From Pseudacidovorax intermedius (lineage in GTDB: Bacteria > Pseudomonadota > Gammaproteobacteria > Burkholderiales > Burkholderiaceae_C): a stretch of 39,215 bases of DNA. Both the position numbers and the translations under genes were made by a program. The stretch is taken from assembly GCF_001476815.1 (NCBI RefSeq), contig NZ_LDSL01000040.1, positions 1 through 39,215 on the forward strand, in the 5' to 3' direction. Below are positions 10,902-14,999 of this stretch, piece after piece. The notes beneath the pieces are model-generated. The model saw only the letters and a program-made list of their open reading frames with translations, was not told where the DNA came from and did not search any database. Numbering within the stretch: the stretch's first letter is position 1; each line of letters opens with the position of its first letter.

Positions 10902-12104
10902 TCAGACGCGCTCGAAGATGCCGGCCGCGCCCTGCCCCATGCCCACGCACATGGTCACCATGCCGTACTTGAGCTGCCTGCGGCGCAGCGCATGCACGAC
11001 GGTGGCCGCGCGGATGGCACCGGTGGCGCCCAGCGGATGGCCCAAAGCGATCGCGCCGCCCATGGGGTTGACCTTGGCCGCGTCCAGACCGAGCGTGTTG
11101 ATGACGGCCAGCGACTGGGCCGCGAAGGCCTCGTTCAGTTCGAACCAGTCGATGTCGTCCTGCTTGAGGCCGGCATAGCGCAGCGCGGCCGGGATCGCCT
11201 CGATGGGGCCGATGCCCATGATGGCCGGCGGCACGCCCTTGCTGGCGAAGCTGACGAAGCGCGCCAGCGGCTGCAGGTCGTACTTCTGGCAGGCGGCCTC
11301 GCTCGCCAGGATCAGCGCACCGGCGCCGTCCGAGGTCTGCGAGCTGTTGCCGGCCGTCACCGTGCCGCGGGCGGCGAACACGGTGCGCAGCTTGGCCAGG
11401 CCCTCCAGGCTGGTGTCGGGCCGCGGGCCCTCGTCCAGGCTGACGGTTCGCGTCTTCTCGGTGGTCTCGCCGCTGGCAGCGTCGAAGCCGCGGTCGGTGA
11501 CCTCGATGGGCGTGATCTCGTCGGCGAACTCGCCGGCCTGTTGGGCGGCGACGGCGCGGCGGTGCGATTCGAGGGCGAAGGCGTCCTGCGCCTCGCGGCT
11601 CACCTTCCACTGCTGCGCCACTTTTTCCGCCGTCAGGCCCATGCCGTAGGCGATGCCCACGTCGCCGTCGCGCTCGAAGATGGCGGGCGACAGCGAGGGC
11701 GCGTTGCCCATCATCGGCACCATGCTCATGCTCTCGACGCCGGCGGCGATCATCACCTCGGCCTCGCCCACGCGGATGCGGTCGGCCGCCATCTGCACCG
11801 CCGACAGGCCCGAGGCGCAGAAGCGGTTGACGGTGATGCCGCCCACGCTGGTGGGCAGGCCCGCCAGCACGGCAGCGATGCGCGCCACGTTCAGGCCCTG
11901 CTGCGCCTCGGGAATGGCGCAGCCGCAGACGATGTCCTCGATGGTCTGCGGATCGAGCCGCGGCACCTGCGCCAGCGCTGCCTTCAGCGTGGTGGCCAGC
12001 AGGTCGTCCGGCCGGGTGTTGCGGAAGAAGCCGCGGTGCGACTTGCCGATGGGGGTGCGCGTGGCGGCGACGATGTAGGCGTCTTGAACTTGCTTGCTGC
12101 TCAT
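10902..12104 (-). CDS. fadA: Acetyl-CoA C-acyltransferase (thiolase II), FadA-type
   Basis: A 400-residue thiolase that cleaves 3-ketoacyl-CoA to acetyl-CoA and a shortened acyl-CoA, the last step of beta-oxidation. The acyl-accepting Cys is Cys96 in NRFCASGLSA. The C-terminal catalytic pair is His356 in GGAIALGHPLGATGA and Cys386 in TMCVGMGQGAAG. The length is normal. The start at 12104 (MSSKQVQDAYIVAATRTPIG) matches the family N-terminus. Its ATG overlaps the TGA of the preceding DUF559 gene in an ATGA, so translation may be coupled. FadN/FadA pairs usually form an enzyme partnership and are normally adjacent. Here 483 bp holding a nuclease-like gene separate the two. Confidence 0.95.
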   Translation of the reverse strand: MSSKQVQDAYIVAATRTPIGKSHRGFFRNTRPDDLLATTLKAALAQVPRLDPQTIEDIVCGCAIPEAQQGLNVARIAAVLAGLPTSVGGITVNRFCASGLSAVQMAADRIRVGEAEVMIAAGVESMSMVPMMGNAPSLSPAIFERDGDVGIAYGMGLTAEKVAQQWKVSREAQDAFALESHRRAVAAQQAGEFADEITPIEVTDRGFDAASGETTEKTRTVSLDEGPRPDTSLEGLAKLRTVFAARGTVTAGNSSQTSDGAGALILASEAACQKYDLQPLARFVSFASKGVPPAIMGIGPIEAIPAALRYAGLKQDDIDWFELNEAFAAQSLAVINTLGLDAAKVNPMGGAIALGHPLGATGAIRAATVVHALRRRQLKYGMVTMCVGMGQGAAGIFERV

Positions 12105-12523
12105 GCCGGGGCTCCTGGGTGTTGGGCTCCTTCCCCCGCTGGGGGAAGGCTGGGATGGGGGCTCGCCTGCACCGCCAGCGATGCCAGTCGCAGGGCAATG
12201 GCGTGCAGAACACCCTCTGGATTGATGAAGGGTTCGTTGGAAGCGAAGCGAAGGACGGCGAATCCTTGCGCCTCGAAGAAGGCATCGCGTGCCTGGTCGT
12301 ACGCGCGCTGCTGCGCATGCTGCGAACCGTCCAGTTCCACGATCAGCTTCGGCGCCAGGCAGGCGAAGTCCGCGATGTACGGACCGAGCGGATGCTGCCG
12401 CCGGAACTTCACGCCCAACTGCTCGCCGCGCAGAGCCGACCACAGGCGACGCTCGGCGTCGGTCATTGCGGTCCGTAGGGCGCGCGCGTGGATGCGGACG
12501 GCGGGGGTGGATTGGTTCTGCAT
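12101..12523 (-). CDS. DUF559 / Vsr-like endonuclease domain protein
   Basis: A 140-residue protein with a DUF559 domain, a small PD-(D/E)XK-type nuclease fold related to Vsr. The visible core is TDAERRLWSALRGEQLG (21-37), FRRQHPLGPYIADF (40-53), then LIVELDGSQH (60-69). Asp52, Glu63, Asp65 and His69 are candidate metal or catalytic residues. FEAQGFAVLRF (83-93) is the usual last strand. The tail, about residues 121-133, is encoded by the left copy of a palindromic repeat, and a longer start (12550) would fall inside the right copy. The stop overlaps the fadA start. The gene has no link to fatty acid metabolism and looks like a passenger in the fad operon. Nuclease activity is inferred from the fold; substrate and biological role are unknown. 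Confidence 0.85.
   Translation of the reverse strand: MQNQSTPAVRIHARALRTAMTDAERRLWSALRGEQLGVKFRRQHPLGPYIADFACLAPKLIVELDGSQHAQQRAYDQARDAFFEAQGFAVLRFASNEPFINPEGVLHAIALRLASLAVQASPHPSLPPAGEGAQHPGAPA
12126..12162. repeat. Left 37-bp palindromic repeat of the DUF559 cassette
   Basis: It contains CCTTCCCCC (12129-12137), loop GCT, and GGGGGAAGG (12141-12149), followed by CTGGGATGGGGGC. Its reverse complement matches the copy at 12543-12579 at 34 of 37 positions. It lies 21 bp before the fadA start and encodes the C-terminal tail of the DUF559 protein. Confidence 0.85.
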
Positions 12524-12542
12524 GAGCGGTGGTGTGGCACTG

Positions 12543-12579
12543 GCCCCCATCCCTGCCTTCCCCCAAAGGGGGAAGGAGC
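12543..12579. repeat. Right 37-bp palindromic repeat of the DUF559 cassette
   Basis: It begins GCCCCCATCCCTG and continues with CCTTCCCCC (12556-12564), loop AAA, and GGGGGAAGG (12568-12576). It is inverted relative to the left copy and starts 8 bp past the fadN stop codon. Two of the three mismatches to the left copy are in the hairpin loop, so the stem is kept. No target-site duplication is obvious outside the pair. Confidence 0.85.
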
Positions 12580-12587
12580 AAGGCGGG

Positions 12588-14999
12588 TCAGTTACGTACC
12601 GGCTTGCCAGTGGACAGCATCCCCATGATCCGCTCCTGGGTCTTGGGATGCTGCACCAGCGCGCAGAAGGCTTCGCGCTCCAGGCGCATCAGGTACTCCT
12701 CGGTCACCAGGGTGCCGGGGTCCACGTCGCCGCCGGTCACCACGTGGGCGATCAGGCTGGCGATGTGGAAGTCGTGCGCGCTGATGAAGCCGCCGTCGCG
12801 CATGTTGACCAGCTGGCCCTTGATCGTGGCGGCGCCGCTGCGGCCGGCCACGCGGAAGGGCTTCGCCAGCGGCGGGCGCCAGCCGGCATCGCTCATGGCC
12901 TTGACCTGGCCGATGGCCACGTGCAGCAGCTCGTCCTTGTGCGGGACGATCACGTCGCCCTCGATCAGGTAGCCCAGCTTCTTCGACTCCAGCGCGCTGG
13001 TGCCCACCTTGGCCATGGCGGCGGCGGTGAAGCCTTCGGTGAGGAAGGGCAGCAGGTCGGTGCCGGTGGAGGCGGCGGCGTTCTCGGCCGCGCGGCGGGC
13101 GATGTAGGTCAGGCCGCCGGCGCCGGGCACCAGGCCCACGCCCACTTCCACCAGGCCGATGTAGCTTTCCATCGCGACCACGCGGCGGGCGCTGTGCACC
13201 GCCAACTCGCAACCACCGCCCAGGGCCATGCCGCGCACCGCGGAGACCACCGGCACGCTGGCGTAGCGGATGCGCAGCATCACGTCCTGCAGCGCCTGCT
13301 CTGCGCCCTCGATGGCGCCCACGCCGGCCACCACGAAGGCGGGCAGCATCGCCTGCAGGTCCGCGCCGACGGAGAACTTGTCCGACGGCGACCAGATCAC
13401 CAAGCCCTGGTACTCGCGCTCGGCCAGCGCCACGGCCTCGGCCAGTGCTTCGGCCACGTCGGGGCTGATGGCGTTCATCTTGGAATGGATGCTGGCGATC
13501 AGCACGCCCTCATAGCCCGGGCGGTCCAGCGTCCAGACGCGCACGTCGCCCTCGTCGCTGATCGTGGTGCCGGACTCTTCGACGGCCTTGGCGCCGCTGC
13601 CCAGCACGCTTTCGGGGAAGAGCTGGCGCGCATGCACCGGCAGGCGGCGCTCGGGCACGAAGCGCTGCTCGGCGGCGCTCCAAGAGCCTGCGGGCGTGTG
13701 CACGCCGCCGGCCTCGGCCACCGGGCCTTCGAACACCCACTTCGGCAGCGACGCCTTGGCCAGCGCCTTGCCGGCGTCGATGTCTTCCTGGATCCACTGC
13801 GCCACCTGCGACCAGCCGGCCTCCTGCCACAGCTCGAAGGGGCCCTGCTTCATGCCGAAGCCCCAGCGCATGGCGAGATCCACGTCGCGGGCGCTCTCGG
13901 CGATGTCGGCCAGGTGCAGCGCCGCGTAGTGGAAGCCGTCGCGCAGGATGGCCCACAGGAACTGGCCCTGCGGCCCTTCGCTCTCGCGCAGCAGCTTCAG
14001 GCGCTGGCCCGCCGGCTTCTTGAGCATGCGGCCGTAGACCTCGTCGGCCTTCTGGCCCGCAGGCACGTAGTCGCCCGATTCCAGATCGAAGCGCAGGATG
14101 TCGCGGCCCGCCTTCTTGTAGAAGCCGCCCTTGGTCTTCTGACCCAGATGGCCCAGCTCGATCAGCTTGGCCAGCACCGGCGGCGTGGCGAAGTTGGGGT
14201 AGAACGGATCGGTGGCTTCGCTCAGGTTGTCCTGCAGCGTCTTGACGACGTGGGCCATGGTGTCCAGGCCCACCACGTCGGCCGTGCGGAAGGTGCCCGA
14301 GCTGGCGCGGCCCAGGCGCTTGCCCGTCAGGTCGTCGACCACGTCGAAGGACAAGCCGAATTTCTCCACCTCCTTCATCGTGGCCAGCATGCCGGCGATG
14401 CCGATGCGGTTGGCGATGAAGTTGGGCGTGTCCTTGGCGCGCACCACGCCCTTGCCCAGCGCGGTAACGGCGAAGGCTTCCAGGTCGTCCAGCACCTGGG
14501 CATTGGTGGTGGGCGTGGGGATCAGCTCCACCAGCGTCATGTAGCGCGGCGGGTTGAAGAAGTGGATGCCGCAGAAGCGCGGGCGGATGCTCTCGGGCAC
14601 CGCCTCGGCGAGCTTCGTGATGGACAGGCCCGAGGTGTTGGAGGCCAGGATGGCATGCGGCGCGACGTGGGGCGCAATCTTCTTGTAGAGGTCGAGCTTC
14701 CAGTCCATGCGCTCGGCGATGGCCTCGATGACGAGGTCGCAGTCGCCCAGCAGGCCCAGGTGCTCTTCGTAGTTGGCGGCCTGGATCAGCGCCGCGTCCT
14801 CGGCCACGCCCAGCGGCGCGGGCTTGAGCTTCTTGAGGTTGTCGACGGCCTTGAGCACGATGCCGCTCTTGGGCCCCTCTTTCGCAGGCAGGTCGAAGAG
14901 GATGACCGGCACGCGCACGTTGACGAGATGGGCCGCGATCTGCGCGCCCATCACGCCTGCGCCGAGGACGGCGACTTTCTTGACTTGGAATTTGGACAT
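12588..14999 (-). CDS. fadN: 3-hydroxyacyl-CoA dehydrogenase / enoyl-CoA hydratase, FadN-type
   Basis: An 803-residue bifunctional beta-oxidation enzyme with the dehydrogenase first and the hydratase second, the order of FadN, opposite to E. coli FadB. The NAD-binding motif is VAVLGAGVMGAQIA (9-22), and the 3-hydroxyacyl-CoA dehydrogenase His is His146 in CGIHFFNPP. The C-terminal HAD domains follow (about 190-380). The crotonase domain is at about 490-740, with oxyanion segment KFSVGADLQAML and both hydratase glutamates, Glu598 in GGGCELA and Glu618 in GLVEVGVGLVPGAGG. It should convert 2-enoyl-CoA to 3-ketoacyl-CoA. No clear ribosome site precedes the ATG at 14999. Upstream (15000-15214) lie a REP element and an operator-like site, so this gene may head its own transcript. 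Confidence 0.94.
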   Translation of the reverse strand: MSKFQVKKVAVLGAGVMGAQIAAHLVNVRVPVILFDLPAKEGPKSGIVLKAVDNLKKLKPAPLGVAEDAALIQAANYEEHLGLLGDCDLVIEAIAERMDWKLDLYKKIAPHVAPHAILASNTSGLSITKLAEAVPESIRPRFCGIHFFNPPRYMTLVELIPTPTTNAQVLDDLEAFAVTALGKGVVRAKDTPNFIANRIGIAGMLATMKEVEKFGLSFDVVDDLTGKRLGRASSGTFRTADVVGLDTMAHVVKTLQDNLSEATDPFYPNFATPPVLAKLIELGHLGQKTKGGFYKKAGRDILRFDLESGDYVPAGQKADEVYGRMLKKPAGQRLKLLRESEGPQGQFLWAILRDGFHYAALHLADIAESARDVDLAMRWGFGMKQGPFELWQEAGWSQVAQWIQEDIDAGKALAKASLPKWVFEGPVAEAGGVHTPAGSWSAAEQRFVPERRLPVHARQLFPESVLGSGAKAVEESGTTISDEGDVRVWTLDRPGYEGVLIASIHSKMNAISPDVAEALAEAVALAEREYQGLVIWSPSDKFSVGADLQAMLPAFVVAGVGAIEGAEQALQDVMLRIRYASVPVVSAVRGMALGGGCELAVHSARRVVAMESYIGLVEVGVGLVPGAGGLTYIARRAAENAAASTGTDLLPFLTEGFTAAAMAKVGTSALESKKLGYLIEGDVIVPHKDELLHVAIGQVKAMSDAGWRPPLAKPFRVAGRSGAATIKGQLVNMRDGGFISAHDFHIASLIAHVVTGGDVDPGTLVTEEYLMRLEREAFCALVQHPKTQERIMGMLSTGKPVRN

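Follow-up and report, generated by a model that had tools for sequence, protein, structure and literature searches.

A DUF559 nuclease gene bounded by its own inverted palindromes in the fadN-fadA spacer of Pseudacidovorax intermedius, a candidate minimal mobile element

A small gene for a DUF559 nuclease sits between the fadN-like and fadA-like genes of Pseudacidovorax intermedius, enclosed by two inverted copies of one palindrome. We propose, with a probability of roughly 0.6, that this arrangement of palindrome, nuclease gene, and inverted palindrome is a minimal autonomous mobile element of ~450 bp whose nuclease acts on its own ends. The nuclease would recognize its own ends, probably folded into a hairpin or cruciform together with a G-rich tail, and would nick or cut them. 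Copying or pasting of the unit as a whole into another intergenic site would then fall to the replication or repair machinery of the host. Gene-less palindrome pairs, which behave like REPINs or MITEs, would be substrates of the same nuclease in trans. What the data show is the bounded architecture, the match between the two ends of a unit, the sorting of end type with nuclease clade, empty and filled sites in one genus, an internally deleted copy, polymorphic gene-less pairs, and the joint occurrence of palindromes and gene; the role assigned here to the enzyme, with end recognition, cutting, and the transposition chemistry, is inferred. The unit lies in a stretch of 39,215 nucleotides, which we call the window, and its features are collected in Table 1.

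Table 1. Features of the unit and of the adjoining genes (positions are those of the window)
Feature	Position	Strand	Basis or remark
Downstream host gene: thiolase (fadA-like)	10902..12104	-	Pfam Thiolase_N/C (run on 10902-12101)
DUF559 (Vsr-like, PD-(D/E)XK) nuclease gene, 149 aa	12101..12550	-	Pfam PF04480 9.1e-37; translation; model pLDDT 85.5
Downstream unit end: palindrome (12129-12149) and gene-facing G-rich tail	12126..12162	+	also codes part of the nuclease C-terminus
DUF559 domain proper	12185..12493	-	invariant residues across 57 aligned relatives
Alternative inner ATG of the nuclease gene	12521-12523	-	
Upstream unit end: palindrome (12556-12576) and gene-facing G-rich tail	12543..12579	-	
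Gap of 8 bp from the unit to the fadN stop (12588)	12580..12587	.	no clear target duplication
Upstream host gene: 3-hydroxyacyl-CoA dehydrogenase/enoyl-CoA hydratase (fadN-like)	12588..14999	-	Pfam

An earlier note on this DNA had described inverted palindromic arms around a small Vsr-like gene, and the same arms were recovered here, 37 nt each, with 34 of their 37 positions (92%) matching when one arm is inverted, 380 nt apart, and enclosing the DUF559 match. Within each of them lies a perfect palindrome, CCTTCCCCC-N3-GGGGGAAGG, with 9 bp per palindrome arm, and only these two copies of it occur in the 39-kb window when up to three mismatches are allowed (shuffle mean, 0.03). At either end of the unit a G-rich tail, GGGATGGGGGC, adjoins the palindrome and faces the gene. 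As single-stranded DNA the lone 37-nt arms fold not much better than their own shuffles (z = -1.3 and -1.8), and the case therefore stands on the exact palindrome and its pairing rather than on fold energy. The borders are also as they had been read before: 8 bp separate the unit from the fadN stop, the nuclease TGA (12101-12103) overlaps the fadA ATG (12102-12104), and the left palindrome codes for the ...SPHPSLPPAGEG... part of the nuclease C-terminus. By Pfam, the adjoining genes encode a thiolase and a fusion of 3HCDH and enoyl-CoA hydratase, which agrees with fadA and fadN. The minus strand at 1311-2900, close to the window edge, encodes a phage tail sheath-like protein (PF04984, PF17482), which may be left over from a contractile-injection system or a prophage.

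The fadN-fadA junction was compared in 15 Pseudacidovorax genomes, the source genome of the window (G000) among them. The unit is present in three (G000, G008, and G013), and in 10 of the 15 the genes are separated by a bare spacer of 17 to 20 bp, in keeping with the previously suggested insertion between fadN and fadA. The G014 junction holds a different DUF559 gene, about 50% identical to that of the window, whose unit has the palindrome CCCTCTCCC-GCTGGC-GGGAGAGGG and the tail TTGGGGTGAGGG. In G009 the junction carries a G014-type unit that has lost 217 bp internally (258 versus 475 bases; 239 of 258 aligned bases identical). Since the G014/G009 unit is unlike the G000 unit, two unrelated units of the same design entered one short spacer. 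A DUF559 match of any kind was found in only 5 of the 15 genomes. The same gene at this junction in all relatives would have argued against mobility, according to the earlier note; the gene is not fixed in the genus, and empty junctions occur. We looked for a target duplication at fadN-fadA and at two gene-less sites, and none was readable and no defined target was found at these sites, because the empty and filled spacers have diverged.

Alignment of 57 sequences revealed invariant residues that include E33, D61, D74, G75, and H78. A profile search of the PDB matched 3hrl, an endonuclease-like protein (5e-40), and 3r3p, a mobile intron protein (3.5e-5). The AlphaFold2 model (pTM 0.70) found the same two structures with Foldseek, 3hrl at 4e-8 and the I-Bth0305I catalytic domain (3r3p) at 4e-4, and matched E. 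coli Vsr (1vsr and 1cw0) more weakly, with E values of 0.04 to 0.08. The model and the profile together predict a protein with a Vsr/homing-endonuclease fold. I-Bth0305I itself we take to carry the EDxHD label. E. coli YcjD is listed among the PD-(D/E)XK members, and its profile is reported to detect Vsr (PMC1189080).

Such a fold, together with the sequence similarity to I-Bth0305I, keeps alive the "homing-like" option that had been put forward for this gene. The nuclease may cut in or beside existing palindrome pairs, gene conversion then copying the gene between the arms while the palindromes spread by other means, and the inward-facing arrangement shared by gene-less pairs and the small number of near-identical whole units per genome, both described below, would agree with this. 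We nevertheless regard homing as unlikely, given that 10 of the 15 fadN-fadA junctions are without any palindrome, that the two palindrome types at this site came with their own nucleases, and that the own-pair matching of ends better fits joint movement of ends and gene. No cognate allele for homing at fadN-fadA was identified among the 15 genus genomes.

The palindrome-bounded architecture was followed in three surveys, covering the genus, 150 genomes of the family, and a phylum-wide (Proteobacteria) sample of 398 genomes, with PF04480 matches in 50 of the 150 family genomes and 145 of the 398. Ends were scored by the inverted match between two 200-bp flanks, a score of at least 40 being taken as strong. 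All 20 family rows of at least 100 bits, which correspond to full-length genes and of which two are in G000, have inverted palindromic ends (lowest score, 35). Matching palindromes also surround the 18 other full-length genes of the 150 family genomes, each without exception. Together with the empty junctions, these relatives support the earlier view of a minimal mobile unit in which REP-like ends carry an endonuclease-like gene. The seven weaker partial matches that were scored (L069 and L071 to L076) have no such ends, with scores of 17 to 25, and partial-match DUF559 relatives seem to be a different, unbounded group. Within the source genome, where a search for further DUF559 genes with flanking repeats had been suggested, one of the two other matches (L001) is palindrome-bounded; the other, L003 (G000:C279:7611-7781), is a weak partial relative of 34.5 bits, and its sequence, when read through, showed no ends of this kind.

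We then scored 132 loci, which are high-scoring survey rows rather than a random sample, lower rows and the internal-stop rows G354:C29 and G351:C26 having been left out. A score of at least 40 was obtained for 82 of the 132 (L081, with a score of 41, included), against 1 of 261 displaced control segments of the same loci, and the median was 51.5 compared to 21 for flanks paired across genomes, 7.6% of these mispairs reaching 40. Hairpins with pyrimidine/purine arms lie on both sides of 69 loci, on one side of 40, and on neither side of 23, whereas the corresponding figures for the 261 controls are 0, 16, and 245. Thirteen of the 23 hairpin-less loci still have an inverted pair (score of at least 32), and 10 of the 132 have neither hairpin nor inverted pair. 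Some alpha-proteobacterial units have a second, inner hairpin, and the units presumably resemble the RIME-type repeats of Rhizobium.

In a separate named collection, for which 80 of 215 relatives were kept and 78 scored (the Pseudacidovorax loci L197 and L198 being left out), 52 of the 78 reached 40, compared to 8.9% of mispairs, and these include records labelled Latescibacteria, Binatia, Nitrospinota, Xanthomonas cannabis, and Rhodopseudomonas. A plasmid collection gave 37 matching records, of which 8 were fetched and scored; two of the eight reached 40 (Sphingomonas parapaucimobilis, L195, and Sinorhizobium meliloti, L196), and the other six scored 15 to 29. In a Neisseria gonorrhoeae record (L191, 1301-2050) the repeat around the DUF559 gene is, by eye, direct and not inverted; structure 3hrl comes from the same species. 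A distinct palindrome type, AATCACTCCCCCCTTGAGGGGGAGTCG, is common to L244 (unclassified bacterium), L256 (Binatia), and L270 (Nitrospinota), and its occurrence across phyla hints at transfer between them. Neighbouring genes were also considered for an operon-direction bias: the upstream neighbour is on the same strand in 41 of 79 cases, i.e., no bias, and the downstream one in 55 of 80 (p = 0.001), but these calls are crude and ORF based and were not used.

Among genomes with several end-bearing units in the set, the two ends of a unit matched each other better than any other scored end of the same genome in 33 of 38 cases, with medians of 70 and 24, and two of the five exceptions are ties. 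The sorting of ends into types (A, B, and other) was done by eye, and in one B row (L064) one of the two ends is of a different type. On the family nuclease tree, end type requires 4 changes against a mean of 10.9 when shuffled, none of 200 shuffles being as low, although neither A nor B is a perfect clade, with 2 changes each. The genus units are of type B in G000, G008, and G013 and of type A in G014, with a third type also in G000, and these three end types belong to three nuclease clades, each beside like-ended units of other genera. End type follows the nuclease clade rather than the host genus. Over the whole set, end similarity and protein identity are weakly correlated (Spearman 0.11, a value reached in 16 of 999 permutations), a less clear result than that of the family tree, although for 66 of 81 loci the partner with the best end is above average in protein identity.

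This sorting also bears on the possibility that the palindromes are REPs moved by another enzyme, a RAYT or other transposase acting in trans, and that the DUF559 gene is a passenger caught between two of them. At least one Y1_Tnp match is present in 16 of 23 carrier genomes, and REPIN-like pairs are the known RAYT substrate (PMC3116915). The Y1 survey, which covered the PF01797 family in 23 genomes (22 carriers and G009 with its deleted copy), nevertheless detected no Y1 gene in 7 of the 23, including G063, G034, and G113, which are listed at 100% completeness. The sole Y1 gene of G000 has neither a flanking inverted repeat (score of 23) nor such a palindrome arm in its locus, and a passenger would leave the sorting of end types by nuclease clade unexplained. 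Mobilization by a RAYT in trans, offered in the earlier note, is on these grounds disfavoured, and we consider any passenger status of the gene improbable.

Gene-less copies of the palindromes are also found. The source genome has seven exact B palindromes, of which five lie outside the fadN-fadA unit, and three of the gene-less sites (L004, L005, and L006) have a sister palindrome with two mismatches 81 to 88 bp away, inverted and with tails inward, so that these pairs resemble the fadN-fadA unit minus its gene. As single-stranded DNA, the L005 and L006 pairs fold well beyond their shuffles (z = -4.4 and -3.4). The gene-less pairs are polymorphic in the genus: the L006 site was aligned in 14 of the 15 genomes (G006 was left out), with the pair in five, one hybrid palindrome in G011, and none in eight, and the L015 site, aligned in five genomes, is filled in three and empty in two. 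The G011 copy (L314, G011:C25) is a lone palindrome that combines the outer arms of the left and right copies, the product to be expected if the two palindromes of a pair slip or recombine. At L005 (G000:C67:22663-22764) the left and right flanks are found at separate places in G004, G008, G011, and G012, so that in G000 this pair marks either the breakpoint of a rearrangement or a join made in assembly.

Palindromes and gene co-occur across the family. Exact A or B palindromes were found in 16 of 19 genomes with a full-length gene and in 20 of the 131 others (p = 3e-9; 150 family genomes), and at least four copies beyond the unit's own were present in 13 of 19 versus 5 of 131 (p = 1e-10); the unit's own palindromes were subtracted by hand, and both tests treat species as independent, which is not fully true. 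Some palindrome-rich genomes have no full-length gene (among them G029, with 25 copies, and G155, with 12). Repeats occurring independently of DUF559 genes had been named as evidence against a mobile unit. Gene-less repeats do exist, but they are largely inverted pairs or remnants, as expected of non-autonomous derivatives of the proposed nuclease-bearing element.

The E. coli gene ycjD (b1289) is located between sapF and fabI, with degenerate copies of an A-like palindrome after it; the copy most easily recognized, GCCCCTCTGGGGAGAGGGTTAGGGTGAGGGG, recurs between ypfG and tkt in another strain. At least 80% of an 850-base ycjD query is present in 3,364 of 5,426 genomes, and all four fetched ycjD loci (K-12 twice, C10, and 118UI) have the order sapF-ycjD-fabI, while sapF is followed by a multidrug-efflux gene in both ycjD-less loci fetched (an ST131 strain and cattle strain 108). 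No inverted end pair was found at either of the E. coli copies that were scored, and E. coli ycjD looks like an old, decayed unit.

The presence of ycjD in many E. coli strains, in one gene order at the four loci read, would also suit a resident repair or defence nuclease of the VSP-repair type, its flanking palindromes being only terminators or regulatory hairpins. In Caulobacter, a DUF559 protein (VsrA) acts in a host methylation context, being needed for an SOS response when a cytosine methyltransferase is absent (PMC12907096), a finding that also accords with the mobile-element reading. A resident role is nevertheless very unlikely for the units described here: presence is patchy, with any DUF559 match in 5 of 15 genus genomes, empty sites occur, and the ends are inverted and matched to their own unit. 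A simple scan of positions 12050-12700 found neither a sigma-70-like promoter nor a terminator-like site, and PADLOC gave no significant match to the nuclease (best E value, 0.0037). More tentatively, at slightly less than even odds, we suggest that DUF559 nucleases are the dedicated mobilizers of a large class of untagged REPs, distributed from Comamonadaceae to rhizobia and decayed in E. coli YcjD, for which a Vsr-like nuclease and hairpin ends would suffice with no transposase.

REPs are common bacterial repeats, and for the GTAG type a dedicated mobilizer, RAYT, has been proposed. The REP/REPIN systems with RAYT (TnpA-REP) (PMC3116915, PMC3733652) share with the units short extragenic palindromes, inverted pairs, and gene-less non-autonomous copies, and there too the enzyme gene is accompanied by the same palindromes and the palindrome type goes with the enzyme. 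The differences lie in the enzyme, a Y1 (HUH) transposase there and a PD-(D/E)XK Vsr-like nuclease here, in the position of the gene, which here lies inside the pair, tens of bases from either end, and in the repeats. Unlike tagged REPs, the window palindromes lack GTAG or CGTC (by eye, window ends only) and have pyrimidine/purine arms with the GGGATGGGGGC tail. The unit would work like a RAYT/REPIN system yet lacks two of its defining features, the Y1 enzyme and the tagged palindrome.

Untagged REP-like repeats of Bordetellae, Brucellae, cyanobacteria, and others are likewise GC-rich palindromes, and in 2013 it was noted that CGTC repeats are apparently without a dedicated transposase and asked whether untagged palindromes go with specific proteins (PMC3733652). 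The arrangement described here, in which untagged palindromes enclose a nuclease gene and recur without it at other places in the genome, makes this question directly testable. I-Bth0305I (3r3p) and Vsr resemble the nuclease in predicted fold and in profile-level sequence similarity, but no intron or intein was seen around the gene here, which is free-standing in an operon spacer and bounded by its own palindromes. Insertion sequences and MITEs also have inverted ends, autonomous and gene-less forms, and internal-deletion derivatives such as the G009 copy; they differ in that the protein encoded here has no transposase domain and each end is a palindrome in its own right. A target duplication was not seen, the spacers being too diverged to read one.

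Among the titles and abstract openings listed in searches of the open-licence literature, no paper linked DUF559 to flanking palindromes, and a report elsewhere is possible. Should the proposed element hold true, it would provide a working hypothesis for DUF559, a large nuclease family of unclear role that includes E. coli YcjD, and would represent a new class of mobile element built on a repair/homing fold instead of a transposase. Its newness as a class depends on the nuclease being the mobilizing enzyme; if the gene is a passenger, the unit is a REP variant.

Nucleases of the same genome are typically 34 to 76% identical, the exceptions being one pair each in G357, G535, and G283, with 83 to 93% identity. 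Near-identical whole units within a genome are rare in this set, and the gene therefore seems to spread less than insertion sequences usually do. The G357 contig C31 carries two units (L092 and L112) 5.7 kb apart, whose nucleases are 89% identical and whose inverted ends are ~100 bp long, matching at 100 of 101 and 95 of 100 positions, respectively. Of all the units seen here, these two make the strongest case for having moved or been duplicated recently.
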